Assembly (NCBI GenBank): GCA_021234155.1
Contig: JAJEKV010000156.1
Span: 434,001-498,000, forward strand
Direction: 5' to 3'
Origin: Isoetes taiwanensis
Taxonomy: Eukaryota; Streptophyta; Lycopodiopsida; Isoetales; Isoetaceae
Length of the DNA stretch: 64,000 nt
The notes beneath the pieces were generated by a model, which did no database searches, was not told the DNA's origin, and saw only the letters and a list, made by a program, of their open reading frames with translations. Below, piece after piece: positions 1 to 30,717 of this stretch (within the stretch, counting starts at the first letter, position 1; each line of letters begins with the position of its first letter). Both the position numbers and the translations under genes were made by a program.

Positions 1-1916
1 TTATTAATGTTAAGCTGAATACCTGAGGCAGCTGAAAATTGATTTAGGATTTTGAGAAAGAATTCAATATTAGCCATATCTGCATCAAGGAAAAAGAAAG
101 TGTCATCATCATATTGAAGAATAGTGAGACACTCATCAGAATCAGGTAGATTTAACCCCTTGATTTGACCCATATTCTGATAATGGATAATGGCCTTAGT
201 AAGCAACTCAGCTGCCACAAGAAAAAGATAAGGGGCTAGAGGACATCCATGTCTGATACCACATGACAGGGGAAAGAAGCCTGAAGGAACACCATTTACA
301 AGAACAGCCGAGTTTGATCTGGAATTCAGGGCAAAGATAAGATTTATCAATTTAGAAGGAAAGCCAAATTTAGACATAGCAAAGTCCAAGAAGTCCCATC
401 TGACTGAGTCAAAGACACATTTGAAATCCAGTTAGAAGAATACAATTTTGATTTGAGATATTGTTCCAATGTAACCCTTCCATAGCAGCAACATAATTAT
501 CAAGGATATACCTACTTGGCAGAAAGGCAGACTGATTTTGACTGATATTCCTTTGCAGAAAGCCATTAATTTTCGAAGCAATGATTTTGGCACAAAGCTT
601 ATAAGTAGTGTTTGTGAGAGATATAGGTCTCCAATCTTGGAATTTGGAAGGGTGATCAATTTTTGGAATCAAGGAGATAAAACCACTGGAAATGGAAGGA
701 TGAAGATGTTCAGCATTCCAGAAAGCATGCACAAGGGAAGTAAGATCATTTTTAAGAATATCCTAGAATTTAATAGAGAACTCAGCAGGAAGACCATCAG
801 GACCAGGAGACTTCCCCTGTGAAAAAGATCCATATAACTACCTTTGAAGAAGTTGGCAATCTCAGAATGAGAAGTGTAATTGTTACCATTGTCATCCTTA
901 ACTTCAGTAATAGAGTTACTCAACACCCTGCTTTTAGCAACTATAAAGAAAAATTTTGTGCTACCAGAATCCATGTCATTAGTATATTTAATTTTACATC
1001 TGATAGCAGAACTTTTTGTCTCCATCTCTTCAATGTTCTTATCTCCTCATCTATCTGAAGATTGGAGTTTGTAGGATCATTTTGAAGAAGAGATCTGATT
1101 TCTTTCATATACATCAGGAGTGAGTTTTCTCTCTACAGCAATCCTCATACTTAGTTCTAGACCAATTCGTGATCCAACCCTTAATTGTCTTGACTTTAGA
1201 ATAGAAATGCTTCATGGAATGTGAATATCTGTCAGAAATATCATTCTCATTTAAGTTTCCAGAGAGCTCCTCATAGAAGGTCCTAAATTGGGAACAAGAC
1301 TTCTCATTGTCAAGAAGAGAAGTATTAAACTTGTAAGGAGTACATCCTTCCCTTTGGATCTTAGTAATATGAGAAGTATGTAAAAATTGAGGTTGATGGT
1401 CAGAGATAGAAGTTCCCTCATCACTAGTGACATAGTTGTTATCCCAAAAGGCTGTAGAAGGATTTGAAACATAAAATCTATCTAGAGTGCAGTAAACTCT
1501 TGCATTGTCCTTTTGCTTGTTAGACCAGGTATAAGTAGCAGTAGATGAGGGAATATGGATCAAGCCATTTTCTGAAACGAGAGAGTCCCAATTAGCCTTT
1601 TCAGCCCTAGTCATATTTATTTTATTTCCCAATTTTAGATCCCAAGAAAGAGTATTATTAAAATCCCCATCAACAATCCAGTTGTCAGTGCTTTGAGTAG
1701 TCAACCAATATTTTATTTCCAACCATATGGGTTCTCTCTCTTTGGGAGTAGTAGGAGCATAAACATTAATAATACCAAAGTTAGAATTGGATACAGAGCA
1801 GTCTTTGAGGGACTATTATAGAAGAGATTATGGTTAACCTCTCTCTTCCAAATGATGGCTAAACCACTATTGAACCACAAGTGGTTCAACATTTTTTTTT
1901 TAGACCATTTGAGCAT
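1..1916 (-). pseudogene. Degenerate plant L1-type LINE ORF2 (endonuclease to reverse transcriptase)
   Basis: Read on the minus strand this is a plant L1 ORF2: an apurinic endonuclease part followed by reverse transcriptase, which would nick target DNA and copy the element RNA in place. The endonuclease shows GDFNN (about 1660) and SDHQPQF (about 1395). The RT shows the block ISLIPK followed by DWRPISLTN (about 600-660), then QSAFLP, and near 120 the catalytic motif, which reads YDDD rather than the usual YADD. The frame is broken several times; one break is near 430, where the residues expected before LDF are shifted. The start of the endonuclease and all of ORF1 are missing on the 1916 side, and the RT runs off the window edge at 1. 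It belongs to the same subfamily as the L1 at 27640-29471, sharing HIPSSTA, TWSNKQ and LDRFYV blocks. Non-functional. Confidence 0.85.
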
Positions 1917-2643: not shown

Positions 2644-2949
2644 CTTTCAATGGTAGGGGTGACTCCTTCATTCATGCAACGTAAAGAGTCTTAAATAAAG
2701 TTATTTTCATCTATGCGACTTAAGAGCATTAAATAAAGTTATTTCAAAATCCATTTTTCACATAGCATTAAGTAACAAGTCCACTAGAATATCCATCTTT
2801 CAATGGCAGGGATGGCTCCTACGTTCATGCAACTTAAAGAGCCTTAAATAAAGTTATTTTCATCCATGCAACTTAAGAGCCTTAAATAAAGGTATTTCAA
2901 GGTCCATTTTTCACATAGCATTAAGTAACAAATCCACTAGAATATCCAT
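2644..2949. repeat. Tandem duplication of a 153-bp unit
   Basis: Two head-to-tail copies of the same unit, 2644-2796 and 2797-2949. Each starts with CTTTCAATGG and ends with CCACTAGAATATCCAT. They differ by scattered substitutions, for example GGTAGGGGTGACTCC against GGCAGGGATGGCTCC. Inside each copy the phrase CTTAA(A)GAGC..TTAAATAAAG occurs twice, so the unit itself contains a shorter internal repeat of about 40 bp. No coding potential is seen. Confidence 0.85.
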
Positions 2950-8549: not shown

Positions 8550-10283
8550 ATGTCCAGCAGGTTTGGAGCTGGGTTACTTAGTACTCTTGATGTTTATAAA
8601 GGTGGTTCAGGTTTCCAGGTCTGGAAAGATGCTATCAAGCATGTTTTAGAAGTTGAAGAACTCTGGGATCTTGTTGATCCTTTGAAGGGAATTGGCACAC
8701 AGAATATTAATGAAATCAATGTGCCAGCTAGCTCTAGTACTGGTACTCAAAACACTAACACTACTATTGCAGAAATCAGTTCAGGAGATACCAAGACTGG
8801 AGCTACCTCTGAAGTCATCATAACAGGGGCTGTGACTGGAAAAAGCTTGTTTGCAAAGCAAAAGCAGGCTCAAGGGATCATAACTTCTAAAGTTAGTCCT
8901 ACTATCAGATTGAAACTTAGAAATATGACAGCTAGGGATATGTGGATTTTTCTGCTGAAACACTATGAAGAAAAGACTTCATCCCAAATAGATCTTTTGG
9001 AAAAGGAACTAAGGAATCTTAAACTTAGAGATGAAGATGATGTCTCTGAATACTTTAATACATTTGACAATATTATAGCAGACTTAAGTGGGGCTGGAGT
9101 TATTCTGACTGAAACATACCAAGTGCTGGCCATAACTAGATCTATAGTAGACAATGATCAGCTATCCCTATTTATCAGAAATATAGCTAAGTCTAGAGAA
9201 GAAGCTGAAAGCATTTTGAGAACTGAAGTAGAACAAAAAAGGGTGATGAGAGATGAAGAAGAAAAATCAGCTGAAATTTTGTATGCTGGAAGAAGGGGAA
9301 AAGGAAAAATTGAGAAAGGAACTTGCTATTACTGCCATGAACAGGGTCATTTCAAGAATAATTGCCCAAAGCTAAATAAGGATTTTAATTGCTACAATTG
9401 TGGAGGCAAAGGACACTTAGCTGCTAAATGCCCATCACCTAAGGATCTCACAAAAGAAAAGGGCAAAGTTGATAATAGAAGAGGAGGAAGATTCTCAGCT
9501 CCAAGAGGACGAGGAGGCAGATCCACTGGAGCATTTATTGCAAGGGAACAAAAATCAAATGAAAAGGAAGAAGATGAAGATGAAGAAGAGGTACAACAAG
9601 TTCTTGCTCATTGTGATATTTTGCAATCTAACAAAAAATCTCGTGCTCTTGTAGTTGATAGTGGAGCTGAAAGATCAGTAGTCCACTCAACTGATCTTCT
9701 CAAACAAATTAATCAAGCTCATGGGAGAAGTGTTCAAGTTGGAGATGGAGCCTTGCAAATGGTTGAAGGAAGAGGTTTATTGCAGCTGATAGATCTAAAT
9801 GGAAAAATTGTAGACATTGAGAGTGTACTTTGTGTACCTACTCTTGTCAAAAATTTGATCTTTGTAAGCCAACTTGTTGATCTAGGCTACAGAGTTGTGT
9901 TTGATTCTGATGCATGTAGAATCTATTTTGGAAATGAAGTTAAGTTTTTGGCAAAAAGGGTTGGAAATCTTTTTCAAATGGATAATGTTTCTTATGACAA
10001 CATTAATTCTGTGACAGAAAATGATTTTGCTTTATGGCACAACAGGCTTGCTCATACTCACTGCAATAACTTAAGAAGTTTAGATAAGAAGGGATGCATT
10101 AATTGCAAAGAAGTAAAAGCAAACAAATTTTTGTGTGAGGGGTGTATGCTTGGCAAAATTACTAGACTGCCTTTCACAAAGGCAAAGCACAGAGCAAATG
10201 AAGTACTTGAACTTGTTCATACCGACCTGTGTGGCCCCTTAAATGTCATAAGACAAATAAGAGATATTTTATATCATTTATAG
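8550..10283 (+). pseudogene. Copia gag, protease and start of integrase (frameshifted)
   Basis: An open frame of 577 codons from the ATG directly after the primer site. It encodes the capsid-type gag (residues about 1-240), two CCHC zinc knuckles (CYYCHEQGHFKNNC at about 260 and CYNCGGKGHLAAKC at about 282), a retroviral-type aspartic protease with LVVDSGAERS (about 366), and the GAG-pre-integrase zinc region with LWHNRLAHTH and a CEGCMLGK-type pair (about 493-545). The integrase core begins with ELVHTDLCGPL (about 560), where the frame is lost near 10240; the next frame continues as HKTNKRYFISFIDDYSRK. Gag would package element RNA, the protease would cut the polyprotein and the integrase would insert the cDNA. 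Being broken, this copy could at most supply gag and protease. Confidence 0.9.
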
Positions 10284-10920
10284 ATGATTATAGTAGAAAA
10301 TGTAAATGCTATTGTCTATCAAAGAAATCAGATGCTTTGACTGCTTTTAAACAATATATGCTTGAAATGGAAAGACAAACTGGCAGGAAATTAAAATGCA
10401 TCCGATCTGGCAGAGGAGAGTATTTGTCCAAAAAAATCAAACATTTTTGTGTCTCAAATGAAATAAAAAGGCAAATAACATGCAGATAGCCCACAACAGA
10501 ATGGTGTGGCACAGTCATGAATGCTATTAGGTCAATGATTAAAGGAAGTGGATTACCAAACTATCTTTGGGAAGAAGCACTTAAGGCAGCTGTGTTTATT
10601 CAAAATAAATTGCCATCATCAAGCTTGAAAGGTAATATACCAGATCTTGTATGGTCAAACAGTAATAATGATATAAATTATGATGTATTCAAATGCTATG
10701 GTTGCCTTGTATATTTTCATATACCAGATGAATTGAGGAGGAAACTAGATAACAAAGGTGAAGTTGGTTAACTAGTTGGGTATGACGAAGAGTCTAAAGG
10801 TTATAGAATTTATGTTCCCAAGAATAATGAAATTATTATCAGCAGGGATGTTGTTTTTGATGAAGGGGTCTTATACAAAGACAGATGCAAAAGAAATAAG
10901 GCAGATGAGGAGATAGCAAG
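10229..10920 (+). pseudogene. Copia integrase remainder
   Basis: After the frameshift near 10240 the integrase core continues with FISFIDDYSRK and ends near 10489. A second shift near 10480 moves into the frame of MNAIRSMIKGSGLPNYLWEEA (10517). A TAA stop at about 10769 follows DNKGEVG, but the same frame continues LVGYDEESKGYRIYVP, which is the normal C-terminal integrase motif of copia. The catalytic glutamate region around 10480-10500 falls at a break. This part is inactive. Confidence 0.85.
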
Positions 10921-11279
10921 AAAAGAAAATTCTGAAAACAAAATCAGCAATGTGGAACAGCATCAAGTCGATCTTGAGTCAATCAATGGAGATGAATATC
11001 AGAGCAATGATGAGAATGAAAAAATCAGAGACAAACATTAGCAGAAATGACAACCTTGATTTGACTCCAGAGGAAAACAGACTGGACACAGGTTGCAAAA
11101 AGAGAAAAACTCAAGTTGAAAGGTTAACTGATGAGGCAAGAATAAATACTGAAAATTATGGAAGGACTGATGGTGGCAGAAGTATGAGAATAGAGAAATT
11201 AGGTAAAAATATTGATCAAGAGGACATTGATCAAATACTGGCATTTTTAGATGATGGACAAATACCAAAAACGTATGAA

Positions 11280-12460
11280 GAAGCATTAATGTCAACTGAT
11301 AAGATACAATGGCTGGAAGCTATAGCACACGCATACATATAACACTGTGGCAGAACCTACAGGACAAAATATTATAGGCAGCAAGTGGATATTCAGGATA
11401 AAAGATTGTGCAGATGGAAAGAAAAAGTACAAGGCCAGATTGGACGCTCAGGGTTATACACAAAAGAAAGGAAAGGACTATGATGAGACATATTCACCAA
11501 TAGTCAAATTAACTAGCATCAGATTGCTTTTAAGCATTGCAAATGCTCAGAATTTTGACTTGCATCACATGGATGTCAAGACTGCTTTTTTGAATGCAAA
11601 AATTGAAGGGGATATTTACATGAGACTAGCTCCTGGATATGAAGGAAAAGATCAAATGGTATGGAAACTGAACAAGGCTGTTTATGGCCTTAAGCAAGCA
11701 CCTCGAGAATGGTACATGTGTATAGATAAATTCTTGAGAGAACAGAACTTTGACAAGCTACAAAATGATGAAAACATTTATAGGTTCCAAGATGGAGAAC
11801 AATTTTGTATTCTAGTTCTCTATGTAGATGATTGCATGATGATTGCAAACAATATTGAATGTCTAAAGCATTGCAAAATAGGTTCCAAATGACTGATCTA
11901 GAAGAATTGAGACAATTTCTTGGTATAGAAGTGATCAGGGACAGGAAAAATAAAATGCGAAAGTTGAAGCAAAGCAAGCATATAGACAATATGCTAAGAA
12001 GATTTAACCTGACATGGGCAAATCCAGCTGCAACACCAATTGTTTCTGGCCACAAACTAACTGCTGAAAAGCATATTACAGAGGAGGAAGCACAAGATAT
12101 GGAAAATGTCCCATACAGGACCTTGATTGGCTGCTTACTGTATTTGTCCAACAATACTAGACCAGATAAATCCTATGTGGTGAATGTTTTAAGCAGAAAC
12201 TGTCACAACCCTACCAAAGAACACTGGTCAGCTAGAAAAAGGGTGTTGAGGTATCTAAAGAAAACTCAAGAACATGGCATTGTATATAATTCAGGAGATT
12301 TAGTTTTGCAAGCATTCAGTGATGATGACTGGGGTGGAGACTTAGGTTGCAGAAAATCCACTTCAGGATATGCTATCTTCTTAGGTGGAGGTGTTATAAC
12401 TTGGAGAAGTAAAAGACAAAGTGCTATTGCAATGTCAACAGCAGAGGTAAACCATGCAAT
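11280..12460 (+). pseudogene. Copia reverse transcriptase and first part of RNase H
   Basis: Open from 11347 to 11892 and, after a frameshift near 11870, from 11859 to the LINE insertion. Copia RT landmarks are all visible: GSKWIFRIK, YKARL.AQGYTQ, DVKTAFLNA, YGLKQAPREWY, and the catalytic LYVDDCMMIA (about 11820). After the shift come FQMTDLEELRQFLGIE and YRTLIGCLLYL. RNase H then starts with FSDDDWGGD, KSTSGY and SAIAMSTAEV (about 12430), where coding is cut by the LINE. Before 11347 the linker QWLEAI..A is also shifted. It would copy genomic RNA to cDNA within virus-like particles; this copy cannot make a full-length product. Confidence 0.92.
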
Positions 12461-12472
12461 TCGTGGTGGGAC

Positions 12473-14599
12473 ATGGAATGCCAAGAGGCCAGGAATAGCT
12501 TACAACAGAATTGTATCTGTAAACCCAAGTGGTACAGAAGTCTCATTAGGAACAAAAAGCGGGCCTTTTATGCTCAAAGACAATCAGAACTATCGGAACT
12601 GCTAAGTAAGCATCCCAAAAGCTTCTGGAATACCTTAAAAGGTAACTCACCTCAACCAGTATTGGAAAATGAGGCACTTATTGATCTAGTCAGATCCATC
12701 TATGAAATAGAAGGTGCAAATAGCATGCCAAAACTGGCTCCAACTGAAGATCTTTTCACTCTAGCAGAGGTGCAAGAATGCCTAGCAAAAACGACAAACA
12801 ACAAAGCCCATGATACAGATGGCCTGTGTGTAGAGCTCTTTAAGTGGAGTGGAGACATTACTTTGAAAATTCTGACAGATCTCTTAAATAAGAGTATCAT
12901 TCAAGGGCTGCCAACCAGTTGGAGGATCAACCGGGTACATCCCATTCATAAGGGAGGAGACAAGACACAGGCAAGCAATTACAGAACCATTCTTATAGGG
13001 AGTGTGTTCTCTAAAATACTAGGCAGCCTTCTTGAAAGTAAATTGAGCTCATGGGCTGAAAATGAGAAGGTTCGCTCACCATATCAGGCTGGTTTCAGAA
13101 ATCAGCATAGTACTTTAGACCATGTACTCACGCTGAGAGTACTGATAGAAAAGGCAAAGGCTCCCAATGCTTCGCTGTTTTTAGCATTCATTGATTTCAC
13201 AAAGGCATTTGATACAGTCCAACGAAATGAGCTTGGAGATAGGCTGGCCCGAATTGGCGTCCCACAGGAACTAAGAGGGGCGGTCTCACAGCTATATGCA
13301 GAGGTACTGATCAGAGTATCATGGGATGTGGATACAGAGATAAGAAGCACAATTGGGGTTCGCCAAGGCTGTCCTCTATCTCCAACCTTGTTTGGAATCT
13401 TTATAGACGAGCTTGATGACTGGTTGAGAGCCAGATCACTCGTAGGAACCAAGCTGGGCACTTATGTAGTGCAACTTCTCTTATATGCGGACGATGTGGT
13501 CTTGACTGCAAACAAGAGAACCACACTACAGGAACATCTAAACAATCTGGAGCTATTTTGTAAGGACAAAAAGATGAAGGTAAATCTTTCAAAGTCCAAA
13601 ATTATGGTATTTGGCACCCGAGATAGACCAGTATTCACATATATGGGACAGATTTTAGAGACCGTTGAGTCCTATAAATATCTGGGTATTGACATCATGT
13701 CTAACTACAGCTGGAAGAATTGCATAAACAGGAGAACCTCGGGAGGAAAAACCGCATTATACAGCATGTTGGCGAAGTGTAACAAAGCTTCCCTTACTGA
13801 TTGGAGCTTGAGGAAAATTCTATTCAAAACTTTGGTCCAAACTATAGTGCTGTATGGTGTCCCCATCTGGGGAGGAGGTATGTCATCTAGGATGTGGAGA
13901 CAAATCGAAACAGTACAGAAGCTATTCCTGAAAGAAGAATTAGGAATCAAATCACAGATCCCATATGCTATAATGCTGGCAGAAGTAGGAATGTTTCCAC
14001 TTGAACTGGAAGGATTGTACCAGGCAATCAATTTCTATAATAGGGTCCAGGCGCAAGACACTATGCGGCTATCACATCAAGCAATGGTAACTTCAGATTG
14101 GTGTAGAAGCTTGCAGGCATGGGCAACCAGATGGGGCATTGGCAGTACATGGCCGCTTGAAAAACAAGAGGTCCGGGTCATGCTCGAAAAGGCAGCAGTG
14201 GATAAGCTCTGGGCTAATCCGGGAAAAAGGATGTTGGAATATCGGTTAAATGTTAACCATATGATCACGTATGAGAGCCAATTATATCTGAAGGCAAATA
14301 TATCTAAGATACAAAGGAGACTTATTGCCAGGTACAGGACAGGGTCACACAGGCTAGAAATTGAAATTGGCAGATGGGCAAAAATTCCAGTGGAAAATCG
14401 GACATGTAAATTGTGCAGAACAGGACAGGTTGAGGATGAGCGACATGTTTTCTTAGTATGCTCGGAATATGCATATATTAGACAACACTTTGGGATACAG
14501 GCACTAGACGTTTATTCTTTGTTAATGCTACCGCCAATGGCATTAGGTCCCTATATAAGGGCGGTGGATGCACACCGTGCCTTGATGCTGAGATTGTAA
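12473..14599 (+). CDS. Non-L1 LINE reverse transcriptase (ORF2 fragment)
   Basis: An uninterrupted frame of 708 codons, remarkable in a window where other transposon genes are broken. The listed ATG is simply the first in frame; the protein really starts mid-ORF2, since residues 1-60 read as an endonuclease-RT linker (ECQEAR, then KRAFYAQRQ, then FWNTLKG). RT motifs in order: THDTDGL-like block (about 120, here AHDTDGL), INRVHPIHKGGD (about 162), YRTILIGSVFSKI, PYQAGFR, AFIDFTKAFD (about 240), GVRQGCPLSP (about 300), and catalytic YADD at 13484-13495. A thumb region follows. The C-terminal CKLC...H....C motif (14405-14461) is of the zinc-knuckle type seen in several animal and algal LINEs. 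It would perform target-primed reverse transcription but lacks its own nuclease here. Confidence 0.85.
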   Translation: MECQEARNSLQQNCICKPKWYRSLIRNKKRAFYAQRQSELSELLSKHPKSFWNTLKGNSPQPVLENEALIDLVRSIYEIEGANSMPKLAPTEDLFTLAEVQECLAKTTNNKAHDTDGLCVELFKWSGDITLKILTDLLNKSIIQGLPTSWRINRVHPIHKGGDKTQASNYRTILIGSVFSKILGSLLESKLSSWAENEKVRSPYQAGFRNQHSTLDHVLTLRVLIEKAKAPNASLFLAFIDFTKAFDTVQRNELGDRLARIGVPQELRGAVSQLYAEVLIRVSWDVDTEIRSTIGVRQGCPLSPTLFGIFIDELDDWLRARSLVGTKLGTYVVQLLLYADDVVLTANKRTTLQEHLNNLELFCKDKKMKVNLSKSKIMVFGTRDRPVFTYMGQILETVESYKYLGIDIMSNYSWKNCINRRTSGGKTALYSMLAKCNKASLTDWSLRKILFKTLVQTIVLYGVPIWGGGMSSRMWRQIETVQKLFLKEELGIKSQIPYAIMLAEVGMFPLELEGLYQAINFYNRVQAQDTMRLSHQAMVTSDWCRSLQAWATRWGIGSTWPLEKQEVRVMLEKAAVDKLWANPGKRMLEYRLNVNHMITYESQLYLKANISKIQRRLIARYRTGSHRLEIEIGRWAKIPVENRTCKLCRTGQVEDERHVFLVCSEYAYIRQHFGIQALDVYSLLMLPPMALGPYIRAVDAHRALMLRL

Positions 14600-14650
14600 A
14601 CGTTTGTTCATGTGCTCCATGGCCTCTCGAGGCCCAAGTGAGCAATAGAC

Positions 14651-14700
<50 letters not shown>
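14651..14700 (+). repeat. (TAA)n tail of the nested LINE
   Basis: A pure ATA/TAA trinucleotide run of about 50 bp between the LINE 3' UTR and the resumed copia coding sequence. It marks the 3' end of the LINE. Trinucleotide tails are typical of some non-L1 LINE clades, in contrast to the poly(A) tails of L1. Confidence 0.9.
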
Positions 14701-14701
<1 letters not shown>

Positions 14702-15010
14702 TGCTGCCTCATCTTTAGTTGCAAAGGAAGTAGCATGGCGAGAAGATTATTAGAAGAATTAAATTGTCCACAAGTTGAGCCAACCAAAATTTGGACAGAT
14801 AATCAAAGCTGCATTGTAATTGTCAAGAATCCAGTGGACCATGAAAGGACAAAGCATATAGAATTGAATATTCATTTTATCAGGGATTTGGCCAGTAAAA
14901 ATTACATTCAAATGGCTTATGTGAATACTGCCAAACAAGTTGCAGACGTTTTTACAAAAGCTCTCACTGAAAGTAAGTTTATTCAACACAGAGAAAGTCT
15001 GAACATTTTT
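14701..15010 (+). pseudogene. Copia RNase H, 3' part after the LINE
   Basis: Coding resumes with YAASSLVAKEVAW (one break near 14735), then LLEELN, KIWTDNQSCI, KNPVDHERTKHIELNIHFIRD and VADVFTKAL. This is the conserved end of copia RNase H and joins logically to the part ending at 12450. RNase H removes the RNA template during cDNA synthesis. The open frame from 14735 continues past the RNase H into the LTR and should not be read as protein beyond about 15010. Confidence 0.92.
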
Positions 15011-15020
15011 TTATTATATG

Positions 15021-15032
15021 ATGAAGGAGGAA
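15021..15032 (+). promoter_or_regulatory. Copia polypurine tract
   Basis: ATGAAGGAGGAA immediately precedes the 3' LTR. It is the RNase H-resistant primer for plus-strand synthesis, in its canonical position. Confidence 0.9.
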
Positions 15033-15603
15033 TGTTGAGAATATCATCATATAATGTGTTAGGGTATCTGCAACTGAACAAACATGCTGGAGCAATATAT
15101 CTTTGAAGCCTACATCATTTTATTGTTCATAGATCATATGGTCATTAGGGCATGGTGAAGGTTATTTTATAAGCCAATGGTCGAAAGTTGATATATTAAG
15201 ATGATGAAGTGTCGAAATGTAATATGCATATTTTTGGAGCGAAAAGTTCATATGAACTTAGTAACTGGCCTAAGCGGCCTGATTTGATGGCTAAACTGTC
15301 GAAGACCTGCCAATTTAAAGATAAAATGTACATTTCTGTATATAGTACTGATTGCACACGTTAAGGAGGAATAGATCGATCTAACACATCAGTTAGATTC
15401 ATTCTCAGAAGCAGTTTCGAGCTACAGTAACCATTTCAATCCCATATGAACAGTGATTTTGTTATATAATGGTTCAATGGTGGTTATAAATAGTGTAGCA
15501 ATGGTTCAAAGGTTTATTTGAGTTTGTTGTACTAGATGTGCAATGTCAAATAATCACATTTTCAATTTGAACTTGTTATTGAATTTGACTCTAATATCCA
15601 ACA
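15033..15603 (+). repeat. Copia 3' LTR
   Basis: A 571-bp LTR, TGTTGAG to CCAACA, matching 7961-8534. Most visible differences are transitions in which the 3' copy carries T or A where the 5' copy has C or G, many at CpG. See the finding on LTR decay. Confidence 0.95.
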
Positions 15604-27639: not shown

Positions 27640-29471
27640 TTGTTTTTGGCAATGGTAAGGTGTAGGGCTAGTACTAATAACTGGTTAAATGATCAGAATA
27701 TTACATCTTGGATCCTTGCTGGAGATTTTAACAACACTCCCTAATGGGACCTCAAAATTGGTAAGCATATTAATATGTCTGCTAAAGAAAAAGAATGTTG
27801 GTCTACCCTTTTGGATAATCATCTCTTTCACCACATTCCTTCTTCTACTGCCAAATTTACTTGGTCAAACAAGCAAAATGGCAATAAAAGAGTATTCTGT
27901 GCTTTAGACAGATTTTACGTCACCAATTTAAATAATCCTATTTGGGATAATTGCTTGGTATCCAGTGATGAAAGCACATCTATATCGGATCATCAGCCAC
28001 AATTTCTCTCTACTAGGTTTGAAATTTCACAAAAAAGGCAGGGTAATATTCCTTATAAGTTTAACACCTCCCTCCTGGAATTTCTACTCTAGTCTTCCAA
28101 AGGTTAAAAGCAATGATAATCACTCCATGAGATTTTTTATGCCAATATCAAAACCGCAAAATCTTGGATTAAGGGCTGGTCTAAAACAAATCATGCTCTA
28201 AAAAAGAGAGAAAGCTATCTTTGCTTCAGAAATTAAACAAGTCAAATCAGCCTTCAACATGATCCCAAGAACCTTGATCTTCACTTCTGTGGAGGGCAAC
28301 CTTGAGAATGCCATCAAAATTATAGAGGAGTCCAAGCTAAAAGGTGCTACCATTAGGTACAAGCTCAAATATCATTCCAATATGGATAATGGCAATTCTA
28401 AATCTTTCTTTCGAGTTGCCAAAAATAGGCTCTTGAAATCTAGCATTTCATAGTAACTCCATTATTGATAATTATGATGACATCTCTTCTTTCTTTAATG
28501 GAAAATATAGAGCCTTATTCTCTGATACACAGAAAGATTCTCAAGGTAATTCTAAGCCCAATTCTAAGGTCGATGAATTTTTCAAATGGTTGACTCTTTT
28601 GCCTCATATGTCCAATTTTTCTCGTAATTTTTACATGGATGACAATGGAAAGCAATCTCCCAAACAGTGATGAGATCTTTGCCACTCTCAAATCTTTTCA
28701 TAAAGGTAAGAGCCTGGGTCCTGATGGTTTTCCCCCTGAATTTTACATTGCCTTTTGGGACACTATCAAATCTGATTTTGTGCACATGATACATGGTTTC
28801 TGGAACTCAAATCACCTTCACCCTGCCATCTTTGCAGGATTGATATCTCTCATTCCCAAAACTGATGATCCCAAACATTTCTCGGACTGGAGACCTATAT
28901 CTTTAACTAATTATTCTTACAAAGTCTGTGCTAAGATCATTGCAAATAGAATTAAAGGTCATCTGCAAGATGTGATTAGTCCTTGCCAATCTGCATTTCT
29001 TCCAAACAGATACATTTTTGATAATTATATTGCTGCCATGGAAGGCCTCCATTGGAATAAGCACACTAATCAGGATTGTATTCTCCTCAAACTTGATTTC
29101 TGGCAAAGGCCTTTGACTCTGTGCATTGGGAATTCATTAATTTCGCTCTAAGGAAAATTGGCTTTTCAAATAAAATTATCCAGCTCATTCTTGGCCTTAA
29201 TTCCAGATCTCAGTCGTCTGTTCTTATTAATGGTTCTCCAGGTGCATTCTTTCCTTTGGCCAGAGGAGTGAGGCAAGGCTGTCCCTTAGCTCCCTACATC
29301 TTCATTGTTGTTACTGAAATTTTAACTAGAGTCATTAAATCACCAACAGCAAATTGGCAATATTAAGGGCTTAATTCTACCTGATAATACCTCCAATATG
29401 AATGTTTTGCAATATGCTGATGATTCATTCAGTTTCCTAAAAAATGATCTTCAAAATATTGGGTGATAAGG
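27640..29471 (+). pseudogene. L1-type LINE ORF2, cut by gypsy 2
   Basis: Endonuclease motif LAGDFNNTP (about 27715-27740) is followed at once by a TAA stop, then WDLKIGKHINM, TWSNKQ, LDRFYV and SDHQPQFLST (about 27990). RT shows KSLGPDGFPPEFY (about 28710), ISLIPKTDD, DWRPISLTNYSYK, QSAFLPNRYI, GVRQGCPLAPYIF (about 29270) and an intact YADD (about 29415). Frames change several times (for instance near 28090, 28450 and 29100). The RT ends abruptly at 29471, where the gypsy 2 LTR begins; the rest is not seen elsewhere in the window. Same subfamily as the minus-strand L1 at 1-1916. Confidence 0.88.
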
Positions 29472-30382: not shown

Positions 30383-30717
30383 ATTAGTGTATATCAGACC
30401 TGAAAATGACCAAGCTATCCTTCGATTTGGAGCCAAAAGTTTGCTGCAACATACTTCTTATCAATGTTCTACCAAGATACCAAATTTCAAAGCCAAATTC
30501 CAAGTCTAACTAGCTTTGGGTATATTGTGACTAGTTGCTGTCCAGAAAATGTATGCGATATTAGTGTATATCAGACCTGAAAATGACCAAGCTATCCTTC
30601 AGATTTGGAGCCAAAATTTTGCTGTAACATACTTTATCAATGTTCTATCAAGATACCAAATTTCAAAGCCAAATTCCAAGTCTTACTAGTTTTGATATAT
30701 GGTGACTAGTTGTTTAT
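30383..30717 (+). repeat. 177-bp tandem duplication in the gypsy 2 leader
   Basis: Copies start at 30383 and 30560 with ATTAGTGTATATCAGACC and run through CAAATTTCAAAGCCAAATTC. They lie between the primer site and gag, so the untranslated leader of this element was duplicated. Differences are a few substitutions and small indels. Confidence 0.9.

Follow-up and report, generated by a model that had tools for sequence, protein, structure and literature searches.

A LINE family of Isoetes taiwanensis with a conserved UAG between ORF1 and ORF2 and a covarying helix that joins the post-UAG site to the 3'UTR

The stretch of DNA analysed here (the window; 64,000 nucleotides of Isoetes taiwanensis contig JAJEKV010000156.1) carries a LINE nested in a Copia element (Table 1). 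An earlier note on this DNA, made from its letters alone, had described an open reverse transcriptase (RT) frame ending in a TAA repeat and splitting the Copia RNase H, and every part of that description was confirmed, the split by two Copia relatives with an empty site (L206 and L207). Comparison with these sites showed that the RNase H frame was interrupted with loss of about 3 nt of target and that the 5' junction of the LINE carries an AGAGG microhomology; the 405 nt from position 14698 onward were 89% identical to L207. No target-site duplication was found by the same comparison, which also ruled out an ATGC repeat present at both LINE ends that had been taken for one. The start of the LINE, placed by the earlier note at 12451, was moved to 12446, where the tblastn match with a full-length relative begins.

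The insertion contains ORF2 from about residue 333 onward, followed by the 3'UTR and the tail. Since the two complete ORF2s that were read measure 1058 and 1060 codons, the 708-codon frame of the window is a truncated ORF2, and its open RT does not make the copy functional. We regard the window copy, with good confidence in the reading as a whole, as a dead, 5'-truncated member of an Isoetes LINE family that encodes two proteins. Because it does not include the ORF1–ORF2 junction, the junction feature described below is invisible in the window. The 3'UTR hairpin was folded in 6 of the 67 aligned copies, among them L035, a near full-length copy read at both ends (its 3' end in L014/L115), whose hairpin sequence is identical to that of the window copy.

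Table 1. Features of the nested LINE and its Copia host (window positions).
Feature	Position	Strand	Basis
Host Copia, 5' part: gag, Pol_BBD, gag_pre-integrs, broken RT pieces	8550..12445	+	ORFs and Pfam
5'-truncated LINE insertion in Copia element	12446..14701	+	tblastn with L010 ORF2 (match 12446-14596) and empty sites L206, L207
Open frame of truncated ORF2, 708 codons	12473..14599	+	ORF reading
RT domain RVT_1	12956..13693	+	Pfam, E 1.8e-36, residues 162-407 of the 708-codon frame
YADD within RT domain	13484-13495	+	
C-terminal CCHC motif, CKLC...H...C (C-x2-C)	14405..14461	+	direct reading of translation
3'UTR hairpin TGCTC...GAGCA, inner stem GGCC/GGCC	14613..14644	+	alignment of 67 copies
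Distal pairing element CTCTCGAGGCCC in 3'UTR	14624..14635	+	partner: 12 nt starting 7 nt after ORF1 UAG (full-length copies)
Tail (TAA)17, perfect array	14651..14701	+	repeat reading
Remainder of Copia RNase H region, 3' of LINE	14702..15106	+	comparison with L207

Relatives of the window LINE were detected throughout a search of the genome, with at least 64 matches of 57-100% identity (63 candidates scored of 60,718 first-look candidates), and the 3'UTR motif of one subfamily gave 172 exact matches (88 + 84) and its reversed control 0. With so many further copies, contamination or an assembly chimera behind the LINE is very unlikely. Full-length copies with endonuclease and ORF1, for which the earlier note had proposed to search, were found, and the family is abundant in I. 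taiwanensis. The literature may bear out the same note's "rarely described", but the element is common in its host; the note's "possibly recent" was a fair judgement, as DNA identity to near copies is 95.6-98.8% (the highest value over 1,133 nt only). A search of IMG/VR viral contigs confirmed no relative.

The RT of the window ORF matched chains of solved structures of L1 type (E 6.5e-19 to 2.6e-18) and of R2 (E 1.9e-18 to 3.3e-17) about equally well, and a profile search with ORF2 gave R2 first (1.6e-21), with 8c8j, an entry named only "RNA-directed DNA polymerase" which we take to be L1 ORF2p, at 1.1e-19. In contrast, a plant L1-like fragment at window positions 28801-29100 had five matches, four named LINE-1 ORF2 protein and the fifth 8c8j, with no R2 among them, a rough contrast given the shorter query (100 aa). 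No poly(A) tail of L1 kind was present in the window copy, which ends in (TAA)17, and most of the 3' ends examined carry TAA, TAAA or related microsatellite tails. Both the RT matches and the tail support the label "non-L1" given earlier, short of proving it. In the RTE clade ORF1 is absent or very short; here, 24 junction loci provided over 3 kb of DNA, and 13 of these have an ORF1 that opens with MPP and measures 228-265 codons. The I clade typically has an RNase H domain after the RT and a zinc-knuckle ORF1. Pfam found no RNase H after the RT in the complete ORF2s of L010 (E up to 1) and L009 (E up to 0.01), where it reported RVT_1, Exo_endo_phos and Exo_endo_phos_2 (in L010 also weak rows at chance level), and it found no zinc knuckle in ORF1. 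These results, together with an L1-like ORF1p, do not support the earlier placement as "I-like". As in APE-type LINEs, an endonuclease of the Exo_endo_phos kind precedes the RT (PF03372; 28.8 bits in L009 ORF2, cut-off 24.5, and 21.8 bits, under that cut-off, in L010); the endonuclease part, searched by sequence against solved structures, matched no endonuclease. The AlphaFold model of ORF2 had a mean pLDDT of 41, too low for structure-based clade assignment.

The model of ORF1p (pLDDT 71, pTM 0.41) shows a coiled coil, an RRM and a CTD, the architecture of L1 ORF1p (type II ORF1), and its best fold matches are human L1 ORF1p chains, 2ykp_B (Foldseek E 4.4e-6) and 2ykq_C (VIA Z 9.6; rmsd 4.8 over 119 residues), at 20-23% identity. 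ORF1p is predicted to be an L1-ORF1p-like RNA-binding protein. It differs from L1 ORF1p in that low identity and in having no Pfam match over cut-off, and the RT of the element is not L1-specific; ORF1p of the coiled coil-RRM-CTD type is not exclusive to L1.

In full-length copies, ORF1 and ORF2 lie in one frame with a single UAG between them, and the ORF2 start codon is not conserved. The stop was TAG at 89 of the 93 junctions read, 61 of 64 in a first set of loci and 28 of 29 in a second (30 loci, of which L167 has a broken junction), the others being TGA (2) and CAG (2). The base that follows TAG was G in 88 of 89 cases (61/61 and 27/28, with C in L163). Three whole-genome searches with junction proteins gave at least 3 of 151 (among the matches listed), 5 of 150 and 2 of 150 rows without any TAG, in overlapping lists whose rows record the stops present without their position. 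In 36 of 38 pairs synonymous sites were saturated or dS exceeded 1.2, with dN of 0.12-0.24 in those pairs, so that the invariant bases do not reflect recent ancestry. Among the 57 distinct first-set copies, codons 3-5 after UAG were constrained beyond their amino acids: NGG serves glycine, arginine and tryptophan, and TTG encodes the leucine of codon 5 in 50 of 57, whereas six different codons encode the leucine of codon 15. Among the 29 second-set junctions, codon 3 departed from NGG in 2 (GAG in L165, GCG in L173), and codon 4 could also be ACT or CCC.

The 11-12 nt that start 7 nt after the UAG are complementary to a hairpin of the short 3'UTR about 3.2 kb downstream. Over 67 copies, 761 of the 804 cells of the 12-bp helix were paired, against a shuffle mean of 705 and with none of 20,000 shuffles reaching 761, and the signal also appeared when the two main sequence groups, with 42 and 24 of the 67 copies, were analysed separately. 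When the 3,379 possible 12-bp diagonals were ranked by covariation, the ten best all corresponded to the helix register, and the best other register scored below zero. The 8-bp core was paired in 353 of 360 cells in 45 first-set copies, where partner arms had been selected manually and not blind to the junction, and in 172 of 176 cells in 22 further divergent copies of the second set, fetched after the register was fixed and with arms chosen by a rule blind to the junction; with shuffled partners, no more than 1 try in 20,000 attained these values. Parsimony placed 8 double Watson-Crick changes in the core, and since related copies are not independent, the evidence counts as about 7 independent double changes and not as 67. 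Natural variants of the two arms include GGACC/GGTCC and GGGCC/GGCCC types. Mean duplex energy was -23.0 kcal/mol for matched and -18.65 kcal/mol for mismatched arms (0 of 20,000 shuffles). As a possible extension of the helix, the adjoining pair towards the stop (offset +9) formed in 22 of 67 copies only, with no covariation. Sequence comparison establishes, then, a covarying 11-12 bp helix between the post-UAG site and the 3'UTR hairpin.

Unusable loci, with the 3'UTR not at the expected place or a broken junction, numbered 19 of 64 in the first set (L016, L017, L018, L019, L022, L025, L026, L027, L028, L033, L034, L044, L047, L050, L052, L053, L060, L069 and L076) and 8 of 30 in the second (L167, broken junction; L148, L162, L164, L165, L171, L172 and L174, landmark missing), and as they were dropped, intact copies are over-represented. 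L165 pairs well by eye, yet fails the landmark rule and is uncounted. Some families (e.g. L090 and L094) were read at the 3' end only and their junctions lie outside the counts, and in L149, L151 and L153 both segments are near-palindromic, which makes pairing indistinguishable from plain sequence identity in those copies. A local stimulator in ORF2 was also sought within 650 nt downstream and set aside for the 3'UTR, as no position was common to all families; the commonest local partner (at about +435 in ORF2, 7-9 bp with part of the post-UAG segment) occurred in 13 of 64 loci.

From these features we infer that ORF2 is very probably reached by readthrough of the UAG, stimulated by a long-range interaction with the 3'UTR in the manner of tombusviruses. 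Termination followed by reinitiation at an AUG or a near-cognate codon (e.g. UUG at codon 5), with the helix keeping the ribosome near the restart site, seems unlikely. The prevalence of TTG at codon 5 would suit such a restart, and the accessible part of one source (PMC5972666) reports termination-reinitiation with downstream structure for the LINE SART1; there, SART1 and mammalian L1 are described as making ORF2 from bicistronic RNA by termination-reinitiation at the ORF2 start codon. The Isoetes LINE would likewise need an uncommon mechanism to obtain its second protein from a bicistronic RNA, but its frames are continuous and without a conserved AUG. The interval -20..+12 around the stop is free of AUG, whatever the frame, in 56 of 64 loci, and an in-frame Met within 24 codons past the stop occurs in 22 of 64 at no conserved position, the first one ranging from codon 2 to codon 145 (6 of 64 showed none). 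At codon 5, L149, L151 and L153 have CTA and L038 and L041 have TTA, all of which keep the 3'UTR pairing; L156 has CTC, which does not. Reinitiation would, moreover, need neither a shared frame nor UAG over UAA or UGA.

Less probable still is that the complementary segments serve replication or packaging, by joining the RNA ends or as a shared RT/ORF1p site, and that their adjacency to the UAG is incidental. In favour of such a role, the 3'UTR arm folds into a local hairpin as well, with a sequence type shared by the junction segment, and an RT could recognise such an element. However, the helix begins a constant 7 nt from the stop position across the compared copies, 63 of 67 with TAG-G there (the exceptions being CAG in L054, TGA in L037 and L168, and TAG-C in L163), and its first pair, G-C in 66 of 67, is not part of the local inner stem in any of the six folded copies; by eye, both sides of this pair differ together in L165. 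Removal of the UAG by splicing from some transcripts, with ORF2 translated from the spliced RNA, is the most improbable reading, since, although TAG followed by G suits a 3' splice site and such use would also hold TAG invariant, A-rich coding bases (NRKHK-like) and no pyrimidine tract precede it and the covarying helix would be left unexplained.

The RNA of a complete element encodes ORF1p, the UAG and, in the same frame, ORF2 with endonuclease and RT. Under UAG readthrough, the majority of ribosomes would terminate at the UAG and release ORF1p, and a minority, stalled or shielded from release factor by the long-range helix, would read through to yield an ORF1-ORF2 fusion. The 3' arm can pair locally within its hairpin or, alternatively, at the readthrough site, so that the 3'UTR could switch the RNA between ORF2 translation and use of its 3' end as template for reverse transcription. 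We put forward only tentatively, as a possibility open to doubt, that this LINE lineage has evolved a virus-like RNA switch, in which synthesis of the endonuclease-RT would depend on a 3'UTR, in cis, that is intact and correctly folded, and the ribosome, in passing, would then free the 3' end for reverse transcription.

According to the available parts of two papers (PMC3234231, PMC5893793), CIRV and TBSV (Tombusviridae; PRTE-DRTE) make their polymerase by UAG readthrough, a post-stop segment pairing with the 3'UTR about 3.5 kb away, and the 3' element adopts two exclusive folds that favour readthrough or replication. The LINE shares with them the in-frame UAG before the polymerase frame (89 of 93 junctions) and a post-stop site complementary to a 3'UTR element, which covaries in the LINE and has a putative role in readthrough. 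It differs in being a genomic retrotransposon and not a virus, and in a helix of 11-12 bp that starts 7 nt after the UAG, whereas the viral helix has about 6 bp; the viral proximal element is carried by a long stem-loop with a bulge. Moloney MLV gag-pol also has an in-frame UAG ahead of the polymerase and an RNA structure downstream (PMC5009743, as far as accessible), but there the structure is a local pseudoknot, and the LINE finds its partner in the 3'UTR, over 3 kb away. The accessible text of PMC5009743 treats TART and mammalian LINEs only as possible cases of bypassing, and that of the papers on Hebe (PMC2861651) and CR1 (PMC1925062) does not mention a programmed stop between the ORFs.

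Among the best-ranked matches in the open-access literature, judged mostly from titles and abstract openings, we found no LINE with in-frame UAG readthrough or with a 3'UTR-dependent version of it. To our knowledge, long-range recoding is known only from plus-strand RNA viruses; if true, our reading would extend it to a genomic retroelement. It addresses two questions, by what means the bicistronic RNA of a LINE yields a little ORF2p and what makes this protein act on its own RNA, and both can be tested with reporters, given a stop kept in 89 of 93 copies and a helix spanning about 3 kb kept in 67 through largely saturated synonymous change. The RNA switch, if true, would be a built-in mechanism of cis-preference, and would imply that readthrough under long-range control either emerged within plant RNA viruses and retrotransposons or passed between them.

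The window LINE was examined against its relatives in the Isoetes taiwanensis genome. ORF reading and a Pfam scan bore out the 708-codon frame claimed in the earlier note (RVT_1, E 1.8e-36), together with its YADD, its C-terminal CCHC motif and its pure TAA tail, a perfect (TAA)17 array; the LINE itself stood, with its start moved from 12451 to 12446. The 3'UTR is 51 nt long. The RNase H frame of the surrounding Copia element is indeed split by the LINE, as seen from the uninterrupted frame of two related Copia copies (L206 and L207). Compared with these copies, about 3 nt of target had been replaced and no target-site duplication was found at the window LINE, and the 5' junction carries an AGAGG microhomology to the upstream sequence of the LINE itself, as present in the copy L008. 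The copy is an ordinary 5'-truncated insertion: the 5'UTR, ORF1 and the first part of ORF2, endonuclease included, are missing. In DNA it is 96.1% identical to the near copy L003, 95.6% to L014, and 98.8% and 96.1% to two parts of L013. Since near copies are thus 95.6-98.8% identical, the burst was fairly recent, as the earlier note had thought possible.

Features located in the window and at one further genomic locus
Feature	Position	Strand	Details
LINE copy	12446-14701		nested in Copia element
708-codon frame	12473-14599
YADD motif	13484
(TAA)17 array	14651-14701
Plant L1-like LINE remnants, broken	27721-29440	+	protein-level search; AGDFNNTP, RT pieces and YADD across these and the 222-1722 remnants
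L1-like piece	28801-29100		matches LINE-1 ORF2 chains, no R2
Plant L1-like LINE remnants, broken	222-1722	-	protein-level search
Two-copy tandem repeat	2644-2949		unit 153 bp, copies 90% alike
Two-copy tandem repeat	30383-30712		unit 176 bp, copies 92% alike
Tandem array of LINE 3' part (L012)	G000:C1034:12890600-12900500		three truncated copies head to tail, period exactly 2448 bp

A protein search of the genome (1,658,258,908 bases, 1110 contigs) returned at least 64 LINE matches with 57-100% identity (63 scored among 60,718 first-look candidates), and an open frame of 1051-1062 residues was reported in 13 of the 64. The further full-length copies that were sought, with endonuclease and ORF1, were found. 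Two complete ORF2s (1058 and 1060 codons) encode RT and, at their start, an APE-type endonuclease, and a domain scan detected no RNase H in either. Against an Exo_endo_phos cut-off of 24.5 bits, L009 scored 28.8 and L010 fell below it at 21.8. By the lack of RNase H and the other features testable here, the family is not I-like, contrary to the proposed clade. To judge from sequence, its tail would set it apart from L1, and its RT appears to have no L1-specific affinity. ORF1 lies upstream of ORF2 and measures 228-265 codons in 13/24 loci; its AlphaFold model (pLDDT 71, pTM 0.41; 12 sequences) combines a long coiled coil with an RRM and a C-terminal domain. All seven Foldseek matches at E up to 0.001 were human L1 ORF1p; VIA-align gave Z 9.6 with 2ykq_C (rmsd 4.8 over 119 residues), tied with 2w7a_A (Z 9.2), and unrelated RRMs scored lower (Z 7.2 and less). 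The family can be described as an APE LINE that has two ORFs, the first of them of type II. The accessible part of the genome paper (PMC8566536) describes no LINE families. The genome has long rbcL frames at L006 and L007 that differ from each other, one in an 11.4-Mb scaffold and the other on a 34.6-kb contig.

In full-length copies a TAG closes ORF1, and the codon directly after it opens ORF2 without a change of frame. The endonuclease sequence (...LRVSLWNAHG...), whose WN.HG we take to be the first endonuclease motif, begins about 5 codons after UAG, so an internal AUG start would usually cut into it. The first in-frame AUG after the stop varies from codon 2 to 145, lies within 24 codons in 22/64 loci and was not found in 6/64; reinitiation at AUG or UUG is a weaker explanation than readthrough. 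Three genome searches with junction proteins from divergent families, whose match lists overlap, left 3 (151 reported), 5/150 and 2/150 of the matches listed without any internal TAG. Base-by-base reading of 93 junctions gave TAG in 89, TGA in 2 and CAG in 2, whereas termination alone should predict common TAA and TGA. The base after TAG was G in 88/89, though the codon varies among E, D, G and V; splicing at TAG|G is likewise weaker than readthrough. The sole exception, the divergent L163, has TAG CAG with the helix core intact. L037 and L168 have TGA then A and largely keep the long-range helix described below (one mismatch in L168), and are possibly a UGA-using lineage or in early decay. 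Intact copies showed dN of 0.12-0.24, and because dS was saturated or >1.2 in 36/38 pairs, junction conservation reflects selection rather than recent ancestry.

The bases following UAG were also constrained. In the first set (64 junction loci), codon 3 was NGG in 57/57 distinct copies, serving Gly, Arg or Trp, codon 4 was GCC, GCT, GTC or ACC, and codon 5 was TTG in 50/57, with Leu ten codons later using six different codons. In a second set of 30 divergent loci, drawn from two junction-protein search lists after the pairing register had been fixed, codon 3 deviated from NGG in 2/29 (L165, L173) and codon 4 was also ACT or CCC. No pairing partner common to all 64 loci occurred within 650 nt downstream of UAG; one at about +435, in ORF2, was common to 13/64 (e.g. 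L017, L021, L062). In some families this CUCAAGG-like segment could base-pair with the bases after UAG, possibly in competition with the 3'UTR arm.

That arm is the 3' side of a conserved 3'UTR hairpin; it reads CGAGGCCC in the window copy and is complementary to the GGGCCUUG found downstream of UAG. The 3' end could be read at 45/64 first-set loci; in these the 8 core pairs formed in 353/360 cells (313 Watson-Crick), and 0 of 20,000 partner shuffles matched the observed pairing. In the second set, where 22/30 loci had both ends (chosen by a rule blind to the junction), the core paired in 172/176 cells, and 1 in 50,000 shuffles of the 16 distinct combinations equalled it. Pairs include GGACCUUGAAGGU with ACCUUCAAGGUCC (L145), GGACCCUAAGGGU with ACCCUUAGGGUCC (L151), GGGUCUUGAGA with UCUCAAGACCC (L065) and, with one G-U, GGGCCCUGAA with UUUAGGGCCC (L040). 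In L149, L151 and L153 both segments are much alike and near-palindromic, as in GGACCCUAAGGGU, so kissing hairpins are possible. On the flanking-protein tree, the core underwent 8 double changes from one Watson-Crick pair to another, while 19 changes produced a G-U pair, 4 reverted from G-U and 9 gave a mismatch. The double change in L045 appears to be an artefact of the tree, so we claim about 7. Across 67 copies the helix measures 11-12 bp, with at least 10 contiguous pairs in 57/67 and 761/804 cells of the 12-bp version paired. As a control that keeps relatedness, every 12-bp antiparallel diagonal between junction region and 3'UTR was scored (3,379; 3,955 in the 8-bp version): the ten top diagonals of the 3,379 all lay in the helix register, and the best of other registers was negative. 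When the 42 G-type and the 24 A-type copies were analysed separately, 0 of 20,000 shuffles reached the observed pairing. That the pairing serves replication alone is again a weaker explanation than readthrough; neither it nor reinitiation or splicing accounts jointly for the shared frame, the conserved UAG-G, the covariation and the missing start codon.

Structure-stimulated readthrough is laid out as UAG-G, a spacer and a stable RNA helix, and all three parts occur in the LINE, where the spacer measures 7 nt and a stable helix is predicted. Each ingredient has precedents (LINEs, readthrough and also long-range readthrough); their combination was not among the open-access papers that the searches listed. 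Tombusviruses use such readthrough (PMC3234231, PMC5893793): their 3'UTR partner lies about 3.5 kb away, against about 3.2 kb in the LINE, and the 3' element alternates between readthrough-permitting and replication-permitting folds. The LINE 3' arm similarly has two alternative predicted pairings, local (mean MFE of the 3' element -13.0 kcal/mol) or long-range (mean -23.0 kcal/mol for matched partners, loop cost ignored). The long-range helix would stimulate readthrough of UAG, yielding an ORF1-ORF2 fusion product, and the 3' arm may act as a switch between local and long-range pairing.
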